47,639 bases of DNA from contig JAKAAG010000006.1 in NCBI GenBank assembly GCA_021797085.1, positions 1-47,639 of the forward strand, read 5' to 3'. Below, in pieces: positions 35,519 to 47,639 of this stretch (the stretch's first letter is position 1; each line of letters starts with the position of its first letter). Source of the DNA: Nanobdellota archaeon. Its GTDB lineage: Archaea > Nanobdellota > Nanobdellia > Parvarchaeales > Parvarchaeaceae. Position numbers and translations under genes: made by a program. The notes under the pieces are model-generated. The model was given only the letters and a program-made list of their open reading frames with translations. It had not been told where the DNA came from and searched no databases.

Positions 35519-37000
35519 ATGGTGCTTAAAATAAACAGGAAAGGTCAAGCAGCTGCAGGGGGAAGTCCTTCTCCAACTCCGCCTACACCTCCAACTCCAC
35601 CTCCTCCTTCAAGTCCAAAACCAAATTCTAGTTCGAAGTATGGCAAAAAAGGAAGGAACGTGTGCGACATCTGCGGGCTACACTTTAAAACTAAGGCACA
35701 ACTGTATCAGCATCAGATAGCTGAGCACGGAGTATCAGCCGATTTTATAAGGCTTGAGCAAGAGGAAAAGCAAAAGAACAGGTTATTCGATACTACATCT
35801 GCAAAAAGGAGCATAAAGAGAAACTCTGTTCTTTTCGCACCAATAATTGTTTTGTTAGTCATAGTTGTTATCTATTTCATATTTATTGCACCAACAAACG
35901 TGGGCATAGTCTACACTGAAGTTACATACGGCTCTATTTTCTCAAAGATAGGCGGGTTGATCTCGTCAGGTATTTCATCGATTTCAACCTTTATTGCAGA
36001 AGTGCAAAATCCAAATCTTCTTGTTACGCAGCCCCAAGTCACTGCAGTGAATTCAACTCCAACATTTTTATCCTTTCTTACTTTTAGTTATCCCCCCAAT
36101 CAGCAGGTAGTTCTCACAACGAATCCACAACAAGGCAGCATTCTTTACTCTGTATACAACAATGGAAACGTTCCATTGGGGCCAGATACCTCCAATAACT
36201 TAGAAGTAAATATCTCATGTGGAAGCACAGTTTCACCAGGCGCGGCAAAGTACTGTCAGGACTTGCTATCAAAATTTATAAGCCCTCCAGAAACGCAAAG
36301 CTCACCACCTGCAATAAAAGATTCGAGTTTAGTTGGCATACTGGCACAGGGCGAAACCAAAGAGAATATTACCAATTTTGAATTATCCTGTCCTCCTTCT
36401 TCAGACAAGCTTACTTTTCCTTTGTCCATGTCTTTCCTTGCAAATTTTCTGATTAAGAATTACACTGCAGCAGTTATACTTCCAATAGAATTTATGTCGG
36501 ATTCTTTCCAATCACAACTTGTATCTTCTTCTCAGGCACTTGTACCAGCAGAGCCTTCATTTAATTTTTACTCCGCAGGGCCAGTACAGATTGAAGTTTA
36601 TACTGTAGTAAAGCAGCCGGTAATAACAAAGATAGATTCGGTTCCTTTGGAGGTAACTTTAAAGAACAACGGCAACTATCCTTATGAAATAAATAATGTG
36701 TCTCTGTACATAAGTAAGGATTTCTATCCTTCCAATCCATCTACAAGTTACTGGAACTGCGTGACTGCAAATCCTGTTCAAATGCAAGGTTTTCAATTTC
36801 CAGGATCAAATTATTGGGACTGTTACATAAGCAACAGCAAGGTATTAAGCTCAGGTTCAACATTCTATCTGGATTTGAACCCTGTGAACTCTTTGAATGG
36901 CATGCATTTCAATACTATGACTGTAATAGGCTACGTAAACTATAACTACAATGAAACTTTGAACATGCCTGTGGTAATATCAAATCAGGCATGCAGTTAA
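35519..37000 (+). CDS. Surface protein with cytoplasmic C2H2 zinc finger and proline-rich linker
   Basis: A 493-residue product. The first residues (MVLKINRKGQAAAGG) look like the KGQ start of pilin-like proteins, but no hydrophobic helix follows. Instead there is a proline-rich linker (residues 17-35) and a textbook C2H2 finger (CDICGLHF..., C-x2-C-x12-H-x4-H, residues about 47-68). A charged stretch and a single transmembrane helix (residues about 100-122) follow, then about 370 extracellular residues with three or four cysteine pairs and strands resembling the neighbours. The finger should face the cytoplasm, since it lies before the helix. It may tether DNA or a protein to the envelope complex. 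Function unknown. Confidence 0.75.
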   Translation: MVLKINRKGQAAAGGSPSPTPPTPPTPPPPSSPKPNSSSKYGKKGRNVCDICGLHFKTKAQLYQHQIAEHGVSADFIRLEQEEKQKNRLFDTTSAKRSIKRNSVLFAPIIVLLVIVVIYFIFIAPTNVGIVYTEVTYGSIFSKIGGLISSGISSISTFIAEVQNPNLLVTQPQVTAVNSTPTFLSFLTFSYPPNQQVVLTTNPQQGSILYSVYNNGNVPLGPDTSNNLEVNISCGSTVSPGAAKYCQDLLSKFISPPETQSSPPAIKDSSLVGILAQGETKENITNFELSCPPSSDKLTFPLSMSFLANFLIKNYTAAVILPIEFMSDSFQSQLVSSSQALVPAEPSFNFYSAGPVQIEVYTVVKQPVITKIDSVPLEVTLKNNGNYPYEINNVSLYISKDFYPSNPSTSYWNCVTANPVQMQGFQFPGSNYWDCYISNSKVLSSGSTFYLDLNPVNSLNGMHFNTMTVIGYVNYNYNETLNMPVVISNQACS

Positions 37001-37001
37001 T

Positions 37002-37997
37002 ATGATGAATAAAAAAGGAGCGAATGGAAGCGGAATTGCAGCGGGAGTAATTGTACTTGTTATTATAGTAATATTATTTCTATACGGCCCGTACCTTCTT
37101 AACAGTCTTGGTTTTTCTCCTGTTCCAACTGCCACGTCATTAAATCATACCGTTGCGGTTGGAGTGATTTCAGTTAACGCCCCCGCAAAAGTTTCTCCTT
37201 CCTCAACATTTGGTGCGACGTTCTTGGTTGCAAACAACCTAAACGGAAAAGCAGCCTCTAATATTTATTTCTGTCTTGATAATCTGGGCCTTTTTACCAT
37301 CCTTTCAAGTCCGGAAACTTCTTCTCCTAACCCTAATGGCAATGCAATAACCAGCGGAAGGTGCGTAAGCATTCCTTCGCTTGCAACCGGTGATATCCTA
37401 TCTGAAGGGTTTACATTTTCGGCTCCACCTGCAAATGCTTATGGGAACATACAATACTCGCAGAATCTAGGTTATTACCTTAATTTTTCCTATGTTGCTA
37501 CTGCATCCCAGCAGCTCGAATTTGTTTCTCAGAGTGCGAGCACAAATGGCAATTATCCTGCGCCGGTGACACAGCCCTCTGATGTCACAGCAGGGCCCAT
37601 TTATTTCTCCTCCTCTTCATCACAGCCTGTTGTTTATGGCCAAGATATAGAATTAGGGCTATCACTTAACAATGTCGGTAGTGGGGTACCAATAGGAAAT
37701 ACTCAAATAAACATCATATTAAACAGTTCTATAATAAATATAACAGATGCAAGCGCTTTAGGTTTTACAGTTAAGCAGTTCTCGAATGGAACTGCCATGT
37801 TTTCAAAAACGATTGTTATAGGCCCAACTGGCGCTTCTATAGAGCTGCCGATATCCTTGAGTACAAGCGAGTTCAGTAAGCTGTCTGGATCAAGTATACC
37901 TTACATCCAGGCTAATATGCATTTTAGCGTTTCATATTCTTATGAGGAAGAAGGCTATTTCCCAGTAGGGCTATACATAGAACCTTATTCAACTTAA
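37002..37997 (+). CDS. Pilin-like membrane-anchored surface protein
   Basis: A 331-residue product beginning one base after the previous stop codon. MMNKKGANGSGIAAG and a 20-residue hydrophobic helix fit a pilin-like or simple anchor start. An extracellular region with beta-sandwich character follows, with one close cysteine pair (YFCLDN and GRCVSI) and several NxS/T sequons. Its N-terminal domain resembles those of the next two genes. ATG 37005 is an alternative start. It shares transcription with the zinc-finger gene. Confidence 0.72.
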   Translation: MMNKKGANGSGIAAGVIVLVIIVILFLYGPYLLNSLGFSPVPTATSLNHTVAVGVISVNAPAKVSPSSTFGATFLVANNLNGKAASNIYFCLDNLGLFTILSSPETSSPNPNGNAITSGRCVSIPSLATGDILSEGFTFSAPPANAYGNIQYSQNLGYYLNFSYVATASQQLEFVSQSASTNGNYPAPVTQPSDVTAGPIYFSSSSSQPVVYGQDIELGLSLNNVGSGVPIGNTQINIILNSSIINITDASALGFTVKQFSNGTAMFSKTIVIGPTGASIELPISLSTSEFSKLSGSSIPYIQANMHFSVSYSYEEEGYFPVGLYIEPYST

Positions 37998-38008
37998 ACG
38001 GTTAAACG

Positions 38009-38029
38009 TTTTTATAGTTAATTAACTAT
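38009..38029 (+). promoter_or_regulatory. TATA box and 16-bp palindrome upstream of 38039
   Basis: A TTTTTATAG box (38009-38017), centred about 26 bp before ATG 38039, overlaps a perfect 16-bp palindrome at 38014-38029 (ATAGTTAATTAACTAT). A second inverted repeat, AAACG-N6-CGTTT, lies at 37996-38011. This is a likely operator that would block TBP or polymerase. Confidence 0.5.
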
Positions 38030-38038
38030 TATTATTTT

Positions 38039-38971
38039 ATGAATAGATTGGGTGCAAGCGGAGTTGCAATTGCAGGAGTGTTAATAGTTGTCATCATACT
38101 AATTGTTGTATTGTATAGCTTTAATAGCGGTGCTTTAAAGCTTGGCAAATCTAGTACAAGTACCCCAAGCACTTTTAGCATATCCGCATATTCTAATGTT
38201 TCGCAGCTTTATTCCGGTAAGTCATCCCCGCTTTATGTAACCTTGTTTAATCCATTTAACCAATCTTTAACCGCAAGTCTTCAAGTCCTTACTGCCCCCC
38301 CTGTTTCAATTGTGCCCGGATCAAAATCCATTTCTGTTCCTGCTAGCATGAAAACTCCTTCAACAATTCTTTTTAACACTTCATGCACAAGTTCAAGCGG
38401 GTCAGTTATACCTTATTTTGCATTAGAAGTACAGAATTTTTGGCAGAACTTAACAACTTCAGTAATCACGTACCCTTACGGAACAAAATCCGGTTTGATA
38501 CCCCAGTCTATATACTCTAATTCAAATTCCGGTTTTATGACTCTGTCAGCTTTACCTGCATCGGTTGAGACTCAGATCCCATCAGGTTCTCTATCTACAA
38601 CAATCACTTTAGATGTCTCTCCTAATTATGATTCAGGAAACTATAAGTCTGGCGCCCCTTACACGGCTATCTCCAACAATAATCCAAATGACTACATTAA
38701 AACAATAAGCTTGTATATAGACAATACGACAGGAGGGATTGCAAGCGCATTTGTTTATTACAACGGTCAGAATTATCCATTCTCGGTTTCGGGCAAAACT
38801 CTCTCTTTGACTCTTCATAACGTGAACCTTCAGTTGATATCGGCAGGTTCTGGCTTACCTATTGAGATAACTGTTACTGATGACAACGCAAGTTCACAGA
38901 ATACAATAGCAATAGATACAAACTATAATTATTACGTTGCATTTACAGGCAACCAAATTTCCTGTATATAA
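38039..38971 (+). CDS. Pilin-like membrane-anchored surface protein
   Basis: A 310-residue product with its own promoter. MNRLGASGVAIAG and a 20-residue helix are followed by a Ser/Thr/Asn-rich extracellular part. The segment SQLYSGKSSPLYVTLFNPFNQ aligns with SHLYTGESMDFISNVFNNGK of the next gene, which shows paralogy. Cysteines are few (one in the middle, one at the C-terminus, GNQISCI). Function unknown; minor pilin or adhesin inferred from the neighbouring prepilin peptidase. Confidence 0.72.
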   Translation: MNRLGASGVAIAGVLIVVIILIVVLYSFNSGALKLGKSSTSTPSTFSISAYSNVSQLYSGKSSPLYVTLFNPFNQSLTASLQVLTAPPVSIVPGSKSISVPASMKTPSTILFNTSCTSSSGSVIPYFALEVQNFWQNLTTSVITYPYGTKSGLIPQSIYSNSNSGFMTLSALPASVETQIPSGSLSTTITLDVSPNYDSGNYKSGAPYTAISNNNPNDYIKTISLYIDNTTGGIASAFVYYNGQNYPFSVSGKTLSLTLHNVNLQLISAGSGLPIEITVTDDNASSQNTIAIDTNYNYYVAFTGNQISCI

Positions 38972-38973
38972 TC

Positions 38974-39861
38974 ATGAAAAATAAAGGGCAGTCTGGAGTT
39001 ATAATAATTGTTGTGATTATAATAATAGTCGGCGTTTTCTTTCTTTATAAGGGGGGATACCTTAATTTCAAGAGCAGCACTACAACAACGACTACGCAGA
39101 ACATAAATCCCTACTTGCCAATTTCATTTAATGTGTCTGCTGTAACTTCTTTATCACACCTGTATACTGGAGAAAGCATGGATTTCATATCGAATGTTTT
39201 TAACAATGGCAAAAGCTATTTGAATGTGACTTTATCTCCATACGGATGTTCTTTTCTACCCGTGCAGAGCAAGAGCTTTTTGATACCTCCTGATTCACCT
39301 TCCTCTTCTACTTGGACTTTTTCAAGCTCAAGTCCGACAAGTTGTTCAATAACCTTTAGCGCTTGCTTCAATGCAGTCTCCTACACAAATTATCCGCTCA
39401 CTATAGAAAACTACAATTTTAGCGGTTCAGTCCCAATATCCTCGATTACTTCTTCATCAGGTCTTCCAATAAGCTTGGGATTGGAGTTGTCTAATACTAC
39501 AATAATTGCAAGCCCAGTTCCATCAAATCAGAGCGAGTATATCGAGGGCAGTTCATTAACCTCCATAGGCTCAACTTCTAAGCTTAACTGGGTTTATATA
39601 CGCATAAAAAATGGCAAGGGGTATTTCACTTCCTCTACCGGTAGCACCTACGCTATAAACCCAAGTATAAACATCTCTTCATCAGAGTACTCACTTAATT
39701 TCCAGTATGGCAGGCTGCTTGCACCAATACAATTTTCCCTTGTAGTAAATCCTATTTCTAATTCAATTGGTTACAGTTCTGATACCTCAATAAACGTCAG
39801 TGCAGGTTATACATACTGTTTGACTTCTAATAGCATACCTATAACAATAAGTTCATCCTAA
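38974..39861 (+). CDS. Pilin-like membrane-anchored surface protein
   Basis: A 295-residue product starting 2 bp after the previous stop codon. MKNKGQSGVIIIVV is the KGQ-type pilin-like start (compare KKGQTVVESL at 41636) and leads into an Ile/Val-rich helix. The extracellular part is a paralogue of the preceding gene. Four cysteines lie in a short central stretch (about residues 90-130) and one near the end. It is the last of five tandem surface genes and meets the dph5 gene convergently with a 3-bp gap. Confidence 0.74.
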   Translation: MKNKGQSGVIIIVVIIIIVGVFFLYKGGYLNFKSSTTTTTTQNINPYLPISFNVSAVTSLSHLYTGESMDFISNVFNNGKSYLNVTLSPYGCSFLPVQSKSFLIPPDSPSSSTWTFSSSSPTSCSITFSACFNAVSYTNYPLTIENYNFSGSVPISSITSSSGLPISLGLELSNTTIIASPVPSNQSEYIEGSSLTSIGSTSKLNWVYIRIKNGKGYFTSSTGSTYAINPSINISSSEYSLNFQYGRLLAPIQFSLVVNPISNSIGYSSDTSINVSAGYTYCLTSNSIPITISSS

Positions 39862-39864
39862 GCT

Positions 39865-40599
39865 TTATAGAAGTTTTAGCGCGTCCTTCTCGTTTTCATT
39901 CAGCTCCCCAGGTATGACAAGCGAGGAGGGAGGCTTAAGGCCATTTAAATCCTTATTGTTTATATTTATGATTTTTTGGTCAACGCTGCCCATTTTTGAT
40001 ATTGCGATTACATTTTTCCAGTCTATTATTTTTATCCCTCTTTTGTTTTCTATCTCTTTAAGTATCTCAACGGCCCTTTCAGGGCTTACAAACTCTTCAT
40101 TGTTTTTTACCTCCAAGAGGACAAGAGAATGGTAATTGCATTTTATATTTTTTTCTATTACTTCAAAAAAGCTTTCTGGATGAAAATGCTCGCTGTAAAT
40201 TGGTATACTGGTAGTGCCGCCGAATTTGTAAAGTGACAACCCTGTTTCGCCCAATGCAGAGAATATACTAGAGGAATGGATTATTTGTATTTGTATATTT
40301 CTAGCTTTGCATTCCTGTATCAGTGAAAAATGGGTAGTAGCGGCAAGAGGATCACCTGGCACCAAAACAGCAATCTTTTCAGTCATGGCTTTATCTATTA
40401 TTAGATTGCTTTCCATCGTTTCTCTTCCGACAATTGCTATTTTTTTGCCGATTTCTTTTTCAAGGTTTTCAAGGAAAGTTATGTCATTTAAATTCGTATA
40501 TCTCTCAAGCAGAATTTCATCGCATTTTTTAAGTTCATCTATAGCCCTTAAAGGCAAATCATTTAAATAATATAATCCCGTACCAATTAAGTATAACAT
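39865..40599 (-). CDS. dph5: Diphthine synthase
   Basis: A 244-residue SAM-dependent methyltransferase of the tetrapyrrole-methylase fold. The start MLYLIGTGLYYLNDLPLRA, VLVPGDPLAATTH (residue about 91), IIHSSSIFSALGETGLSLYKFG (residue about 105) and the C-terminal PPSSLVIPGELNENEKDAL are all family hallmarks. It methylates the modified histidine of aEF2, an intermediate step of diphthamide synthesis that precedes the Dph6 reaction. It interrupts the surface locus, and its start codon overlaps that of the divergent prepilin peptidase. Confidence 0.95.
   Translation of the reverse strand: MLYLIGTGLYYLNDLPLRAIDELKKCDEILLERYTNLNDITFLENLEKEIGKKIAIVGRETMESNLIIDKAMTEKIAVLVPGDPLAATTHFSLIQECKARNIQIQIIHSSSIFSALGETGLSLYKFGGTTSIPIYSEHFHPESFFEVIEKNIKCNYHSLVLLEVKNNEEFVSPERAVEILKEIENKRGIKIIDWKNVIAISKMGSVDQKIININNKDLNGLKPPSSLVIPGELNENEKDALKLL
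40567..40574 (+). promoter_or_regulatory. TATA box of the prepilin peptidase, inside dph5
   Basis: An AATATAAT-type box is centred about 27 bp before ATG 40598 and lies within the dph5 coding region on the opposite strand. Confidence 0.45.
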
Positions 40600-41431
40600 G
40601 GTATATCAAATGGATTATCTGATATTTATCTTTGTACTTTTGATGTTGCTGATAGCTTCTATACAGGACTTCAGAAACAGAGAAGTACCTGATTCAATAA
40701 GCTATATCCTAATGGCAGGCACACTGCTGCTTTCATTTATTTATTCCTTAGCTTACAACACCATTTCAAATCTAATCTATATACCCATTTCCCTGCTGCT
40801 GCTTTTCGGGTTTTCCTACTTCATGTATCGCTTAGGTCAATGGGGCGGAGGGGATGTAAAATTAATGCTTGGGTTAAGCTTCGTTTTCACCTCTTTAAAC
40901 GTTTTTTCGGACAAATCCTTTATTGCATTGTTTATAAACATCCTCCTTTTTGGAGGGATTTACGGGTTAATCGGCACAATATTATTTGGATTAGTGAAAA
41001 TAAACAAACTCAAAAAGCATTTCCAAAGGTATGACGTTCCTTTTTTCATTGCATCAGCTGCCATTATAATTCTATCGGTTTTGTTGGTTCCATTCCCAAT
41101 AAACATTTTCATTGCAGTAGGCGTATTCATGATATTTTCCATCCGCTTTGTATTTTTGGTAGCAAACAACCTAATGTACATACAAGAGAAGGTTTCAAAA
41201 CTTACTGAGGGAGATTGGCTTGCAGAGTCACCAAAGGATTCAAACGGCAAAAAAATAGTGCCTGAAAGAAGCACTGGATTGACAAATGCAGACATTCAAA
41301 AGCTAAAGGAAAAAGGTATAAAAGAAGTTATAATCAAGATTGGCCTGCCTTTTGTTCCTGGCATATTCTTTGCAGTTATTATAACAGTTTTATTAGGCAA
41401 TCCGTTCCTTCAGCTTTTTTCTGCATTATAA
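40598..41431 (+). CDS. Archaeal prepilin peptidase, A24 family
   Basis: A 277-residue polytopic protein with about seven or eight helices. The two catalytic aspartates are Asp24 (ASIQDFRNREVPD) and Asp86 in the GxGD motif (WGGGDVKLMLG). This is the aspartic peptidase that cleaves class III signals after the KG or similar charged stretch. A cytoplasmic loop near residues 200-245 (EGDWLAESPKD, then TGLTNADIQKLKEKGI) resembles that of PibD/EppA-type homologues. ATG 40598 overlaps the dph5 start codon; ATG 40610 is an alternative. Flanking pilin-like genes are its probable substrates. Confidence 0.9.
   Translation: MVYQMDYLIFIFVLLMLLIASIQDFRNREVPDSISYILMAGTLLLSFIYSLAYNTISNLIYIPISLLLLFGFSYFMYRLGQWGGGDVKLMLGLSFVFTSLNVFSDKSFIALFINILLFGGIYGLIGTILFGLVKINKLKKHFQRYDVPFFIASAAIIILSVLLVPFPINIFIAVGVFMIFSIRFVFLVANNLMYIQEKVSKLTEGDWLAESPKDSNGKKIVPERSTGLTNADIQKLKEKGIKEVIIKIGLPFVPGIFFAVIITVLLGNPFLQLFSAL
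40621..40630 (-). promoter_or_regulatory. TATA box of dph5, inside the prepilin peptidase gene
   Basis: GATAAATATC on the minus strand is centred about 26 bp upstream of the dph5 start codon and falls within codons 8-11 of the prepilin peptidase. Confidence 0.45.
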
Positions 41432-41635: not shown

Positions 41636-44600
41636 ATGCAAATTAAAACTGGCAAAAAGGGACAAACAGTTGTAGAATCCTTGATGACCTATGGTTGGAT
41701 GATTGTTCTTGTAGCAGCAGTTTTAATTGTTGTTTTTCTTCTAGGGTTATTTTCTCCATTACATTTTATTTCACCTTCTTCAACAATAAGCGGATTTACA
41801 GGTGTAAAAGTAACTGCCGTAATTGCAAATTACAGTTATATGGAATTTTATCTTACAAATTCTCTTTCGGTTTCAGTCAATTTAAACAAATTCTCCTTGC
41901 TTTATAACAATACGAGGTTATCAAATGTAAGCTGCCAGTATTTGACACTATCACCAGGTCAGAATTCAATATGCTTTACAAAATTAAAGCTTGCAAACAC
42001 CCGGGACACAGTTTCATTGGGAATCACATTTGCCATTTCAAGTGTTATAAACGCTTCTTCAAATGGTACAATGTCCTTTGTTCCTACAAATATAAATCTG
42101 CCATTGCCTTCCATTATAACCGAATTCAGTGAGGAGGGCCTTCCAACTGGCTCTCAATGGTGGGTGGATTTCAAAGGTGCTAATCATACCTCTACAGGCA
42201 CTGAAATACTGTTTGCCTCCGTCCCAGGTAACTATTCCTTCATCGTTGGCAACACATCATTTAACGGCTGTACATTCACCGCTCTTCCTTCTTCTGGTTA
42301 TTCTGAAGCAGGCCTTCTAAACAATATAATATTCATTAATTCCTGTGCGGCTACCTTCATAGAGAAAGAGTTGCCCCTAGGCACAAAGTGGAAAGTAGAA
42401 TATGCGGGCGTTAATCAGTCTTCAACTACCAATTTATTGGTGTTTACAAATGAAAAAAGAGGCACATACCCATATTCAGTTAACGATTCTATAGTGGCGG
42501 GCTGTATATACCAACCTTCACCTTCCTCTGGATCTTTGGCCGTAGGGCAATACCAATATATACGTTTTCTAGGAGAATGTACAACTACATTTACTGAAAG
42601 TGGTTTGCCTTCTGGTTACAAATGGAATATGTCATTTGATGGGCTTGGAAAGGAAAATACCACAAGTAATATCTATTATTTCGGCTCTCCTGGAAATTAT
42701 TCTTATTCCATTAGCACGTTGTCTAATTCTTCTTCTTACCCTGTTTGTAGCACAACATACACTCCCTCACCTTCTTCTAATACAGTGGCGGCAGGTTCCA
42801 CGGTCTTAATTACTTTTTCAGCAGAAACAACATGTACAACTACATTTACTGAAAGTGGTTTGCCTTCTGGTTATCAATGGGATGTTACATATAATTCGAT
42901 ACCAAAATCTGCAGATGCACCTGCCGATATACCGTTTACAACAAAATCGAGCGGCAGCAGCATACCTACTTATCCATACTCCATTCCATACCTTTCAAAT
43001 TCCTCTTCGACATTGGATTGTAAAACAACATACGCCCCATCTCCATCATCTGGGTCAGCAGAAGCAGGTACTACGGTTCCGATTAGTTTTACTGATTTCA
43101 CAGTATGTATAACAACCTTTACTGAAACGGGATTAGGCTCAGGAACAGTATGGTCTGTAACTTATAATGGAAATACTAATAGTGGCACTGCACCATCAGA
43201 TATAACATTTAAAACAAATACTACTGGTGCAGGCATTCCAGCTTATTCCTATACTATAAATAAAATTGCTCCAACTACTTCTTCAACTTTAGACTGCACA
43301 ACGGCTGCTACTCCTACCCCTTCCTCCGGAACTAATTTACCCGCAGGCTCAACTGTAGCGGTTTCTTTCGCAGCAGAAACAACATGCATAACAACATTTG
43401 ATGAGTCGAACCTCCCAACCAATTATCTTTGGAATGTTACTTTTAACAACACTAAGAACTATTCTACCTCTACGAGCATGGAGTTTACGACCGTTAACTC
43501 TGGGAGCACGATACCTTCTCTGCCTTACTCCGTTCCAACTTTAACATCAACAAGTGTAGAATGGAACTTCGGTACTTCAAGTTATCAGGGGGATATATAC
43601 CAAGGGATGCCTACAGAAGCGTTTCCATCATCTTTGAGTGATTTGAACAACAATGTGGTGGCATGCGGTTCACCATATGATTCCCAAGGTTATACTGCCG
43701 TAGGTTATATGTACTTTACCTCTTCAATTACGGTAACTATAACTTCAGATGACGCTATGGCAGTTTTCTATACCCCAGTTGGGTCTAATTCCTGGACAAG
43801 TGTCTTCGGGAGTAATGCTTGGCATGGAGAAGGGGCGACACAGTATGGGCCAACAACAGTTTCAGTAACACCAGGTTGGTATGAAGTTGCAGTGGACTGG
43901 ACAAATATCTGTGGCCCAGGTATGAGTGCCTTTGAGATAAATGGTGCTTACATGTTATCTAGCCAATTTAATGTAATTGGGTGGACTCCCTCTAATGATA
44001 TACAATTATTACCCTATTCAGATGTTTCAACGGATCCTGCTAGCCCTTCAGATATTACAGTAGAGCAGACGGGTTCATGGTCTCATGAATTCAATGGTTA
44101 CTTTACGTATACTTACACACCATCACCATCCTCTAATACAGTATCGGCCGGCTCTACAAATTCAATTTCATATTCTACAAGCGGTTCATCAACAACAGAA
44201 TTCTATGAAACTAACTTACCTTCTTCAGCTTCAAGTTGGTCTGTGTCATACGATAATGGCGCAGCTAGTGGCTCAAACTCCGCAGGTTCTCCTATAACAC
44301 TTTCATTAGGCAGTCAATCATCACAGAATTCATATCCTGCAACTGCAACAGCAGACACCTCTACCGGCTTAGCATGTACTGCATCCGCTTCTGTTGAAGA
44401 AGGCACTACTTATACGTTTACAAATTGGTTGTGCAGACTACCAGTCTATATAGATAATACGCAGGGCACTGCAACGCCTGCACCCTTCCAGCAAGAGTTG
44501 ATAGTTAATTCTCAAACATACTCTCAGTACGAGGCTTCAAATCTAGATAATGTGGAGTTTACTTATGCTAATGGAACAATTATACCTTCTTGGCTTGAAT

Positions 44601-46927
44601 CTGGAAACTCCAGTACAGCACCTTCAACCGTTTATTGGCTTAAGATAGGGGGAGGAATACCAGCAAACTCGGAAATGGAGATATACATTAATTTTGCACT
44701 TCCGACATCAACTAATGTTTTCAATACAGTGAATGTGGGAGAGGCTCCGCAGCTTTCTCCAAATTATGCAGAGTATGATGACGGAGCTGATGTATTCAAT
44801 GTCTACTCCAACTTCGCCGGCACAAGCCTGCCAAGTGATTTCACCTCTTATGTTGGAGACGCCACACTGTCAGTGGATAATGGCCTTCACCTACAAGTAG
44901 CAAACAACGGCTGCTCCAGTACATGGGCAGGTATAATCTACAACAACCCTATAGACTCAGCAGATTCTATAGTGGAAACCTATAGCTCGGGAACCAGAGT
45001 TGCAGGACCTGAAGATGTTGGATTGTATACAGGAAATAGCGACACTGCAGGAGGATATGCAGGAGTGGCCGATACTTGGGGATGGGGATACGGAACAATA
45101 AGCGGTGGATACGGAAACATAGGCAATCCATTTGACATAAGCTCAGGTAGCGGAGTGGCAAGCATTTACTGGATAGGAAATGGAAACGAAGGCATCGGAT
45201 GGAATTACAACTTTGTCTCATCAACAAACACGAATGAAGGGTGGAGCAGCAGCTTATATGCATCTATACAGACTGGGGAGTGCTCTCCTAATGCAAACAT
45301 GGTTTATTACTGGTTTAGGGTCAGGGCATACCCTCCAAATGGGGTTATGCCATATGCATGGGTCCAGCCAGTTTTGCCATCAGGTATTAGTGATTACACA
45401 CCATTAACAATATCTAACACACAATCCTCTGCAACTTCTACTCCTTTCCAGCAGTTGGTAACTATAAATCCTTCAAGTCCATTATGGTCTTATATAAATC
45501 ATGACGGCCAGTCAACAGGTCAGAACTTGGAATTTATGTATGGGAATGGTACTATAATTCCAAGTTGGTTAGAATCTAATTTAACTTATATTTCACCAGG
45601 GTATAGTTCTTCTACGGGTTCTACCTCTGCATCGACGACAGTACCAAGTGATAATTATTACTTATGTGCAGGTGGCGATGGTAATGGGGCTTTAAGTTCA
45701 TATTCTTGGACCAACTTGGCTTCTACGACTTATACAAGTCTGGGATATCAAAGTTCACCGACCTGCAGCGATTCATCTAGCAGCTCTGATATAGTTGTTG
45801 GCGGCGTTTCTTTAAATCAAAATTACATTAGTGACCAAGTAAATACCTATAATTCAGTATCATCTTTTAGCTGGCAATTCACAGTTCCATCAAATGCAGG
45901 TTATACACTTTTAGTTGGATCATGTGGTTGGTTTGAATGCAGTTCTATATCTTTACCGGCTGGTTGCAGCCAGTTGTTCTTTACTCATGGTGGAGACAAC
46001 TATGAAACGGCATTTGCCGCAGCATGTAACCTTAATCCAGGCAGTTACACAGTTTCTGGCAACCTTAATGGTGCTGGGTATGTCAGCATTGGGGCATTTT
46101 ATTTCTATTCTACTTTAAATTATTGGATAAAATTGGGAAGCATACCTGCATATTCAAGCGAACCTATATATATTGGAGTTGCATCCACATCTACAAATCT
46201 ATTCAATGGAAATACAGTTGGAGAAGCACCACAGCTTTCAAGTTCATACGCAGAATACGATAATGGTGCTAATGTATTTAATTACTACACTAACTTTGCC
46301 GGTACAAGCCTTCCTTCGGGATGGAGTAGTATAGTGGATAATGGAGTTGCTTCCGATTCAGTAAGTAATGGATTAACATTAAGCGTTTCAGGTACTAATT
46401 ATCCGTTGATATGGGTATGGTATGATACAGCACTTTCTCCTACAAACGAGATATTTGATGCTTATTCTACATCCACTACTTTCAGTACAGGCGTAGAAAC
46501 AACCGAAGTTGCTCTTTCAACTGACAAATATGGAAATGACTTACCCAGTTGTGGAGTTTATCAGACTTATAACGGATATTCAAACAATCAAGGGTCCTCT
46601 ACTAATTCATGGAACATAGCAGAAGCCGTTGAATCAACAACGTGCGACAGCTCTTCTAGCAGTAGCTTTGGTGGAAACTTTTTAGATGGCGTTTATACTG
46701 TTAGGAGCATAAACTGGCAGGGAACCGGTAATGAAAACGCAGGCATTGATTATACACGTAATAACTGGGATAACACGGTTGTTTCTCAGTCCAATGTTTA
46801 CTTTGGTTTAGGCCTATATGAAGGTAACCAGGGAGATTCGCTTAATTTCAAGGTACAGTGGGCGAGGGAAAGAGCATACCCTCCAAATGGGGTTATGCCA
46901 TCTGTAAATATCGGCCCAGTTGCATAA
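41636..46927 (+). CDS. Giant pilin-like adhesin with class III signal, GLP repeats, PA14-like and DUF2341 modules
   Basis: A 1763-residue product. A class III (prepilin-type) signal KKGQTVVESLMTYGWM, with Glu5 after the expected cut, and a hydrophobic helix to residue about 38 lead into a pilin-like domain (to about 158). Seven repeats with the motif FxExxLPxGxxWxV follow, starting at residues about 160, 239, 314, 399, 490, 584 and 852. Each repeat carries a cysteine pair 25-32 residues apart. A PA14-like module (SDDAMAVFY) occupies about 640-780 within repeat 6. Two DUF2341 plus concanavalin-like modules span about 933-1250 and 1255-1763, the second with an inserted domain. There is no C-terminal anchor. 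A pilus-tip or cell-surface adhesin is the best inference. Confidence 0.85.
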   Translation: MQIKTGKKGQTVVESLMTYGWMIVLVAAVLIVVFLLGLFSPLHFISPSSTISGFTGVKVTAVIANYSYMEFYLTNSLSVSVNLNKFSLLYNNTRLSNVSCQYLTLSPGQNSICFTKLKLANTRDTVSLGITFAISSVINASSNGTMSFVPTNINLPLPSIITEFSEEGLPTGSQWWVDFKGANHTSTGTEILFASVPGNYSFIVGNTSFNGCTFTALPSSGYSEAGLLNNIIFINSCAATFIEKELPLGTKWKVEYAGVNQSSTTNLLVFTNEKRGTYPYSVNDSIVAGCIYQPSPSSGSLAVGQYQYIRFLGECTTTFTESGLPSGYKWNMSFDGLGKENTTSNIYYFGSPGNYSYSISTLSNSSSYPVCSTTYTPSPSSNTVAAGSTVLITFSAETTCTTTFTESGLPSGYQWDVTYNSIPKSADAPADIPFTTKSSGSSIPTYPYSIPYLSNSSSTLDCKTTYAPSPSSGSAEAGTTVPISFTDFTVCITTFTETGLGSGTVWSVTYNGNTNSGTAPSDITFKTNTTGAGIPAYSYTINKIAPTTSSTLDCTTAATPTPSSGTNLPAGSTVAVSFAAETTCITTFDESNLPTNYLWNVTFNNTKNYSTSTSMEFTTVNSGSTIPSLPYSVPTLTSTSVEWNFGTSSYQGDIYQGMPTEAFPSSLSDLNNNVVACGSPYDSQGYTAVGYMYFTSSITVTITSDDAMAVFYTPVGSNSWTSVFGSNAWHGEGATQYGPTTVSVTPGWYEVAVDWTNICGPGMSAFEINGAYMLSSQFNVIGWTPSNDIQLLPYSDVSTDPASPSDITVEQTGSWSHEFNGYFTYTYTPSPSSNTVSAGSTNSISYSTSGSSTTEFYETNLPSSASSWSVSYDNGAASGSNSAGSPITLSLGSQSSQNSYPATATADTSTGLACTASASVEEGTTYTFTNWLCRLPVYIDNTQGTATPAPFQQELIVNSQTYSQYEASNLDNVEFTYANGTIIPSWLESGNSSTAPSTVYWLKIGGGIPANSEMEIYINFALPTSTNVFNTVNVGEAPQLSPNYAEYDDGADVFNVYSNFAGTSLPSDFTSYVGDATLSVDNGLHLQVANNGCSSTWAGIIYNNPIDSADSIVETYSSGTRVAGPEDVGLYTGNSDTAGGYAGVADTWGWGYGTISGGYGNIGNPFDISSGSGVASIYWIGNGNEGIGWNYNFVSSTNTNEGWSSSLYASIQTGECSPNANMVYYWFRVRAYPPNGVMPYAWVQPVLPSGISDYTPLTISNTQSSATSTPFQQLVTINPSSPLWSYINHDGQSTGQNLEFMYGNGTIIPSWLESNLTYISPGYSSSTGSTSASTTVPSDNYYLCAGGDGNGALSSYSWTNLASTTYTSLGYQSSPTCSDSSSSSDIVVGGVSLNQNYISDQVNTYNSVSSFSWQFTVPSNAGYTLLVGSCGWFECSSISLPAGCSQLFFTHGGDNYETAFAAACNLNPGSYTVSGNLNGAGYVSIGAFYFYSTLNYWIKLGSIPAYSSEPIYIGVASTSTNLFNGNTVGEAPQLSSSYAEYDNGANVFNYYTNFAGTSLPSGWSSIVDNGVASDSVSNGLTLSVSGTNYPLIWVWYDTALSPTNEIFDAYSTSTTFSTGVETTEVALSTDKYGNDLPSCGVYQTYNGYSNNQGSSTNSWNIAEAVESTTCDSSSSSSFGGNFLDGVYTVRSINWQGTGNENAGIDYTRNNWDNTVVSQSNVYFGLGLYEGNQGDSLNFKVQWARERAYPPNGVMPSVNIGPVA
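42113..44431 (+). repeat. Array of FxESGLPxGxxW repeats
   Basis: Seven copies encode variants of TFTESGLPSGYxWxVTYN followed by a Pro-Ser-Ser strand and a Cys. Units 3 and 4 share an identical 42-nt stretch (from 42577 and from 42832, 255 bp apart), so that pair is recent. The same motif is familiar from surface proteins of Thermoplasmata and related acidophiles (recalled, not searched). Confidence 0.85.
45310..46904 (+). repeat. Duplicated DUF2341/lectin-like module ends
   Basis: The stretch encoding AYPPNGVMP occurs near 45328 and 46876 and is identical over about 28 nt. EAPQLS-x2-YAEYD-x-GA also occurs in both modules (near 44740 and 46220). The two modules are divergent copies, with an extra domain of about 180 residues inserted in the second. 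Confidence 0.75.
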
Positions 46928-46928
46928 T

Positions 46929-47459
46929 ATGGAAGATAAGAAAGTAAGCAGAGGTTTAGACAAAAACACCAAGAAGAATTTAAAAAGCAATATAATCCAA
47001 AAAAAAGAAAACACGTCTAACTCCAATCTATATTTTTATTTGATTCTATTGTTTAGTCTGGTTGCTCTTGCGGGAGTTTTATATTTAGTGTTTTCATTTT
47101 CTATGCGTTTAATTCCGGAGACTTTATGCAATATTGGTTCAAGCAGATTCAACTGCACAAACATACTTACAAGCACTTATGCTAGATTTTACGGTCAGTA
47201 CCTTTATTTATACGGTTTGTTCTTTCTAGTCATAGAATTGGCTTTGCTTGCATTTATAAAGCATTACAAAAATAAAGCTATTTTATTTTATTCGTTTTTT
47301 GCCATACTTTTGATTGGTTCGGCAATATCGGTTTACCTTCTTTTCATAGAGTTTTCTGTTTTAATATTTATTTGTCTACCTTGTACGATTAGCTTAATCT
47401 CAATATTGGCAATGCTTCCTTTTTCATTTTTGTACAGATATTACTCAAAAAAGCAATAA
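46929..47459 (+). CDS. VKOR-family disulfide-forming membrane protein
   Basis: A 176-residue product from ATG 46929, two bases after the adhesin stop codon; a TTG at 46920 in frame is less likely. A basic cytoplasmic start (to about 32) is followed by four or five helices. The shuttle cysteines are Cys67 and Cys76 (LCNIGSSRFNC), followed by the TSTYARFYGQ signature. The active CxxC is Cys149-Cys152 (CLPC) near the outer end of a helix. VKOR passes electrons from newly formed protein disulfides to quinone. No thioredoxin domain is fused, so a separate DsbA-like partner is expected. Co-transcription with a cysteine-paired adhesin gives it an obvious client. Confidence 0.88.
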   Translation: MEDKKVSRGLDKNTKKNLKSNIIQKKENTSNSNLYFYLILLFSLVALAGVLYLVFSFSMRLIPETLCNIGSSRFNCTNILTSTYARFYGQYLYLYGLFFLVIELALLAFIKHYKNKAILFYSFFAILLIGSAISVYLLFIEFSVLIFICLPCTISLISILAMLPFSFLYRYYSKKQ

Positions 47460-47501
47460 AATAGGAATTTGTGCATTAAACAGCCAAATATAAGCAAAAG
47501 C

Positions 47502-47509
47502 TTTATAAA
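47502..47509 (+). promoter_or_regulatory. Strong TATA box near the window end
   Basis: TTTATAAA preceded by GCAAAAGC (BRE-like) is one of the best promoter matches in the window. Transcription would start near 47532. The first ATG downstream (47550) opens only a five-codon frame. Confidence 0.6.
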
Positions 47510-47531
47510 CCTTTTCTACTTATTAGATATT

Positions 47532-47639
47532 TATCGGTTAAACAATAATATGCACTTCTTTATTTGATAATAAAGAAGGAAGTGTCGAGCTGTTAAAAAC
47601 AGCAATGTGACTGTGTGATTTGCTAATCCAAGCTATTAG
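47532..47639 (+). ncRNA. Probable start of a structured non-coding transcript (possibly rRNA leader)
   Basis: After the strong TATA box there is no open frame. A perfect 10-bp stem with a 4-nt loop lies at 47555-47578 (CTTCTTTATT / AATAAAGAAG) and a 6-bp hairpin at 47589-47603 (GCTGTT / AACAGC). The final bases (CTAATCCAAGCTATTAG) could approach the 5' end of an archaeal 23S rRNA, but the window stops there and I cannot confirm it. Confidence 0.4.

Follow-up and report, generated by a model that had tools for sequence, protein, structure and literature searches.

A pilin-like adhesin with cysteine-paired repeats and a trailing VKOR gene in a Parvarchaeaceae genome

Gene content of the locus

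The window, i.e., the whole stretch of 47,639 nucleotides analysed here, encodes a putative pilin-like adhesin of 1763 residues flanked by a prepilin peptidase gene and a gene of the VKOR family of membrane thiol oxidases (Table 1). On inspection of its sequence, the adhesin carries the class III signal motif KKGQ-TVVESLMTYGW, and together with the PF01478 gene upstream this assigns it to the type IV pilin-like proteins. The gene begins well before position 42113, where the initial annotation had placed its start; that position corresponds to residue 160, the beginning of the first GLP repeat. A gene for a diphthine-synthase-like methylase (PF00590) is also found upstream, on the opposite strand, and the order prepilin peptidase (pibD)-adhesin is common to G024, G019, G011, G027, G008, G004, G007, G012, G005, G016, and G023. 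Positions 35519-39861 of the window encode three pilin-like proteins together with a zinc finger protein of C2H2-like type, a cluster that is conserved genus-wide next to the genes for the methylase and the prepilin peptidase. The GLP repeats are followed by two C-terminal modules, the first of DUF2341 type (its PF10102 score is only 22.3 bits when the whole adhesin is searched) and the second related to it, for which the Pfam search of the whole adhesin returned no separate stretch.

The VKOR assignment is based on a PF07884 match (42.5 bits, cut-off 27.5), on sequence matches in the PDB to the Synechococcus and human VKORs, and on a predicted model (pLDDT 75) with the expected four-helix fold (helices 30-57, 92-112, 116-145, and 150-175), whose top 14 PDB fold matches are all VKORs (best E 4e-3, TM ∼0.6). 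C67, C76, C149, and C152, the last two forming the motif C149-LP-C152, are invariant across the 12 sequences of alignment A1, confirming that all four working cysteines are kept. From the helix order and the Lys-rich N-terminus, both cysteine pairs are predicted to lie on one side of the membrane, facing outward. The protein thus resembles the Synechococcus VKOR (3KP9, 4NV5) in its four helices, loop cysteine pair, and CXXC, but it has no fused thioredoxin domain and carries a 33-residue Lys-rich N-terminal extension, which within alignment A1 occurs only here and in the ortholog from G024. The two genes are separated by a single base, as initially annotated, although an alternative in-frame TTG start at 46920 would make them overlap by 8 bases. 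Behind the VKOR gene, the end of the contig matches the DNA that immediately precedes the 23S rRNA gene of relatives (BLASTN, 93-99% over 143-145 bases to G019, G027, G005, and G011; the 23S gene was located by Rfam in G005 and G011); Rfam gave no match in the final 340 bases of the window, and we infer the 23S neighbourhood from this DNA similarity.

Table 1. Features of the adhesin-VKOR locus and of related loci (positions without prefix refer to the window)
Feature	Position	Strand	Remarks
Prepilin peptidase (Peptidase_A24, PibD-like)	40598..41431	+	PF01478, 50.9 bits; directly upstream of adhesin
Pilin-like adhesin	41636..46927	+	ORF; 1763 aa; 26 Cys
Adhesin N-terminus MQIKTGKKGQTVVESLMTYGWMIVLVAAVLIVVFLLGLF	41636..41752	+	Putative class III (pilin-type) signal and hydrophobic segment; from sequence and adjoining prepilin peptidase gene
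GLP repeat 1	42113..42349	+	Cys212/Cys237
GLP repeat 2	42350..42577	+	Cys290/Cys315; Cys315 codon immediately after, at 42578
GLP repeat 3	42578..42832	+	Cys371/Cys400; Cys400 codon immediately after, at 42833
GLP repeat 4	42833..43105	+	Cys462/Cys491; Cys491 codon immediately after, at 43106
GLP repeat 5	43106..43384	+	Cys554/Cys584; Cys584 codon immediately after, at 43385
GLP repeat 6, large insert	43385..44200	+	No canonical pair; Cys677 and Cys759 within insert
GLP repeat 7	44201..44434	+	Cys914/Cys933, 19 apart, differs from canonical pair
First DUF2341-type module	44438..45385	+	PF10102, 25.3 bits (cut-off 23.4) on 44426-45535
Second DUF2341-like module, with insert, to C-terminus	45392..46924	+	Homology to first module, 39% identity (alignment A4)
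Junction TAA-T-ATG	46925..46931	+	Adhesin stop TAA 46925-46927; VKOR ATG 46929; identical in G024
VKOR-family membrane thiol oxidase	46929..47459	+	176 aa; PF07884, alignment A1, PDB sequence matches, fold model; oxidase activity predicted
VKOR Cys codon starts	47127, 47154, 47373, 47382	+	
Stretch matching DNA just upstream of 23S rRNA gene	47496..47639	+	Contig end; BLASTN to relatives
Secreted, anchored 4-Cys protein behind adhesin in relatives	L073:228-1184, L074:10067-11032, L075:10653-11564, L078:11303-12157, L080:10211-11101		Four conserved Cys
VKOR, 62-aa pilin-like protein, and 12-Cys DUF2341-like protein (847-869 aa) in a row	L194:5465-8792, L196:7590-10983		

Cysteine pairs of the GLP repeats

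According to the initial annotation, every repeat of the adhesin holds a pair of cysteines 25-32 residues apart, likely closed by one disulfide. In-register pairs do exist in repeats 1-5 (five of the seven), with spacings of 25, 25, 29, 29, and 30, i.e., a range of 25-30, whereas repeat 6 lacks both positions and the pair of repeat 7 is non-canonical; the canonical pairs account for 10 of the 26 cysteines of the protein. The GLP repeat itself was found in 53 proteins or protein fragments of the family, from which repeats were gathered with a profile built on the Cys-bearing repeats of the window. Because this profile is biased toward such repeats, it inflates the share of repeats with cysteines, which is therefore not a fair estimate; the test of joint loss is less affected. 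Among 343 distinct family repeats, 316 have both the mid-repeat cysteine and the cysteine at the end of the same repeat, 20 have neither, and only 7 have a single one (p ∼1e-25), and the pattern persists when the set is thinned to less than 50% identity (113 with both, 14 with neither, 6 with a single cysteine, p ∼1e-13), these p-values being indicative only, as the repeats have a common ancestry. Chance is ruled out for the pattern of pairs seen in 316 of the 343 distinct family repeats, in which the spacing is mostly 25-26 or 29-30. We also tested a pairing of the mid-repeat cysteine with the junction cysteine preceding the repeat, which is ruled out by the independence of the two across the family repeats (p ∼0.4).

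Repeats 3 and 4 (42563-43129) were modelled with AlphaFold from 82 sequences; the model has a mean pLDDT of 93.9 and is all beta. In model numbering, the cysteine pairs 62/91 and 153/182 fall on strands 62-69 and 80-98, and 153-160 and 171-182, respectively; judging by the positions of the strands rather than by distances, these strand pairs could run antiparallel with the two cysteines opposite each other. Strong co-retention and joint loss of the cysteines and the strand positions in this confident predicted model both argue for one disulfide, as initially suggested, which very probably closes each canonical GLP repeat. The fold matches of the model are led by the Gram-positive pilins Spy0128, PitA, and SpaA, with Foldseek probabilities of 0.97-1.00 for most top matches and a best E-value of 2.6e-5, but TM-scores of only 0.2-0.4, and we take this as a likeness to Ig-like pilin domains and not as homology. 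Like Spy0128, SpaA, and the giant Mobiluncus adhesin with its 51 cross-linked Ig-like domains (PMC10619420), the protein would consist of beta domains in tandem, each covalently linked within itself; it differs from them in the predicted link, one disulfide per repeat.

The cysteine-paired repeat extends well beyond this adhesin. Giant proteins with 28-31 repeats and 52-64 cysteines, which span ∼2700-4200 residues in the stretches read, are encoded in the same genome and in several relatives. No VKOR gene was found beside them in these stretches, the neighbours being unrelated genes. Since the giants carry the cysteine pairs even so, the paired repeat is a trait of the family, independent of an adjoining VKOR gene. 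The giant on contig C13 of the same genome (L104:8741-19999) covers at least 3753 residues in the stretch read, within an open frame of 4593 residues, and has 31 GLP repeats and 64 cysteines. An otherwise similar protein of G030 (L116:2378-3910) has GLP repeats without either cysteine and represents a natural Cys-free variant.

The slot behind the adhesin and other VKOR genes

A VKOR close to that of the window (78%) was found in only one of the 32 family genomes, G024, where it lies directly behind the orthologous adhesin. The two adhesins are 82% identical, with 26 of 26 cysteines kept, as are all four in the VKOR, and both genes are under purifying selection (dN/dS 0.09 for the adhesin and 0.15 for the VKOR). 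The boundary between them is unchanged in G024, even with a second adhesin gene and a gene for a 209-residue protein lying between the prepilin peptidase gene and the VKOR-linked adhesin. This arrangement is rare: of eight genomes with a readable slot behind the orthologous adhesin, the present genome and G024 have a VKOR there, five (G019, G011, G027, G007, and G005) have an unrelated membrane-anchored protein of ∼280-320 residues with four cysteines, and in G012 no gene intervenes before the 23S rRNA gene. The closest orthologous adhesin seen without a VKOR behind it, that of G019, has kept its cysteine pairs. We considered the 4-Cys protein as a substitute oxidase and rejected it, since it lacks a CXXC and the three members scanned gave no family match above the cut-off.

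The genome encodes three VKORs, namely the window copy, a copy in an ileS-TBP-VKOR operon present in most members of the genus, and a second type on contig C30. After G024, the next best VKORs are less than 40% identical to that of the window, and in the tree the VKORs of the window and G024 share a long branch inside the TBP-type clade, the exact place of which is not fixed. Contig C10 of the same genome starts with the 3' end of a 23S gene, behind which come a transposase ORF and the VKOR linked to TBP, so that across the contig break the order would be adhesin-VKOR-23S-VKOR-TBP-ileS; the adhesin, the 23S gene, and VKOR-TBP do lie together on a single contig in G005 and G012. The ileS-TBP-VKOR operon is found near the 3' end of the 23S gene in ∼17 genomes (L080, L079, L001, L004, and others) and faces it in G005 and G012. 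This synteny would suggest that VKOR was recently duplicated locally, to the other side of the 23S gene, but given the long branch and its unfixed place we make no such claim.

The neighbourhood of the 23S gene gives weight to a serious rival of any functional pairing, according to which the adhesin and the 23S gene enclose a slot of varying gene content that simply received a VKOR copy. The varied content of the slot among relatives, its vacancy in G012, and the genus-wide VKOR just across the 23S gene all speak for such a purely positional link, as do the many adhesins per genome, with ∼0.02-0.11 adhesin-VKOR adjacencies expected by chance (a rough figure for three VKORs, an assumed 7-31 adhesin-type genes, and ∼850 genes). 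Chance is less clearly excluded for adjacency alone than for the cysteine pattern, though the exact junction recurs in a second species. The identical junction in two species and the purifying selection on the VKOR argue against the positional reading, and the tree, despite its long and unfixed branch, gives no sign of a recent copy of the neighbouring VKOR. We hold this explanation to be doubtful, while keeping it as the main competitor.

The initial annotation had proposed a survey of VKOR neighbourhoods in relatives; a link to surface proteins is mostly absent from them, the usual neighbours being TBP and ileS. In other DPANN families, 38 of 40 VKOR stretches contained a recognisable VKOR, with mixed neighbours, and a DUF2341-like neighbour was found in one (G278, L191). 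Outside the family, the co-occurrence of VKOR and DUF2341 is not above expectation (22/54 versus 139/300, p = 0.46). With such mixed neighbours and no excess of co-occurrence, the linkage of VKOR and adhesin is sporadic. A separate cluster, in which genes for a VKOR, a pilin-like protein, and a DUF2341-like protein stand in a row, is found in G278 (DUF2341-like protein of 869 residues with 12 cysteines) and in G127, of the same genus in another DPANN family, while it was not found in G153, the third genome of that genus examined. We call the G278 protein DUF2341-like only, because its direct comparison with the adhesin is weak and an ordinary profile search missed it, the profile-profile probability being 85%. 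A general link between VKOR and prepilin peptidase was considered and dropped, as the listed pairs sharing a contig outside the family lie, by eye, tens of kb apart or more. No VKOR relatives were found on viral contigs. At L161:3284-6068 a VKOR gene adjoins one for an exported-looking protein of 706 residues with 24 cysteines and no Pfam match.

DsbA (PF01323), a partner such as the DsbA/VKOR and MdbA/VKOR systems have, was found in none of the 32 family genomes, and Thioredoxin_4 (PF13462) is absent from the present genome. Contig C19 of this genome encodes an anchored TlpA-like thioredoxin with the motif WCSSC, which could be a candidate shuttle. Judging by the look of their sequences, the genes beside it encode a small membrane protein with cysteine, a regulator resembling ArsR, and an oxidoreductase similar to mercuric reductase (L204:1018-3500).

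Possible role of the adhesin-VKOR unit

The initial annotation knew of no description of VKOR in connection with pilin-like adhesins, and here it was mistaken. In Actinomyces oris, pilus assembly requires both VKOR and MdbA and is severely impaired by the loss of VKOR (PMC5478893), and in CPR bacteria an MdbA-like protein with a neighbouring VKOR has been proposed to fold type IV pilins (PMC6744442). As in A. oris, a membrane VKOR would here support disulfides in pilin-type surface proteins, but in A. oris it re-oxidises MdbA and the pilus is made by sortase, whereas here no DsbA-family protein was found and the VKOR gene trails an archaeal adhesin. The CPR proposal likewise connects VKOR to pilin folding in reduced, host-dependent microbes, with the difference that the VKOR gene adjoins an oxidoreductase gene there and an adhesin gene here. 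In the literature searched, we came across no archaeal example of an adhesin gene paired with a VKOR gene.

We propose, with a probability of roughly one half (0.52), that the two genes form a unit in which the VKOR, along with the ileS-TBP-VKOR copy, probably serves exported cysteine proteins generally and not the adhesin alone. The adhesin would be exported, and the prepilin peptidase encoded next to it would cleave its class III signal. Once outside the membrane, every canonical GLP repeat would fold into an Ig-like beta domain, closed by a disulfide between the mid-repeat cysteine and the one at the end of the last strand, and this clamp should stiffen the repeat as isopeptide bonds do in Gram-positive pilins. 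With its cysteine pairs predicted to face outward, the VKOR would pass thiol electrons to a presumed membrane quinone, its partner protein being equally putative. Assuming that both genes are co-expressed, the trailing VKOR would add oxidising capacity where and when the Cys-rich adhesin is made. From the sequences compared here, its most likely role is to raise the capacity for oxidative folding of the adhesin and of other cysteine proteins that are exported.

An exclusive pairing of adhesin and VKOR is possible, but the initial view of a dedicated pair, in which the VKOR acts solely or chiefly on the adhesin of the preceding gene, is not established and appears improbable to us. In its favour are the one-base junction kept in two species despite a rearranged flank, the long shared branch of a diverged VKOR paralog, and the separate cluster of G127 and G278. 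However, the genome has three VKORs, the adhesin of G019 has its cysteine pairs without a VKOR behind it, the paired repeats occur family-wide and are thus not confined to VKOR-linked adhesins, and with two of eight slots occupied the VKOR does not generally follow the orthologous adhesin. More speculatively, a diverged VKOR of DsbA-less archaea, co-translated with a giant adhesin, might oxidise the repeat cysteines directly, without a soluble thioredoxin-fold shuttle; the G127/G278 cluster would then be a second, independent case of such substrate coupling, which we regard as a long shot. That the VKOR has another redox task (quinone, metal stress) while the adhesin cysteines oxidise by themselves in Fe(III)-rich acid water seems highly improbable: it would suit the acid mine habitat of relatives (PMC5864196) and the unrelated DoxX-like and heavy-metal ATPase genes (named by sequence look) that adjoin VKORs elsewhere in DPANN, but the VKOR retains the loop cysteine pair used in thiol exchange with a protein partner, and spontaneous oxidation leaves the coupling of the genes unexplained.

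As a lineage-wide trait the disulfide clamp is solid, whereas the gene pairing is rarer, found in two species, and unproven. Acid mine water is a known habitat of Candidatus Parvarchaeota, the group to which the present genome belongs, and cells of ARMAN have been reported to touch Thermoplasmatales cells via pili-like structures (PMC5864196). The many repeats compared here provide sequence evidence for a family of giant archaeal surface proteins in which a single disulfide is predicted to close each repeat, the cells reportedly living in contact with other archaea. They also offer a concrete test case for extracellular disulfide formation in a lineage that has VKOR but no recognisable DsbA.
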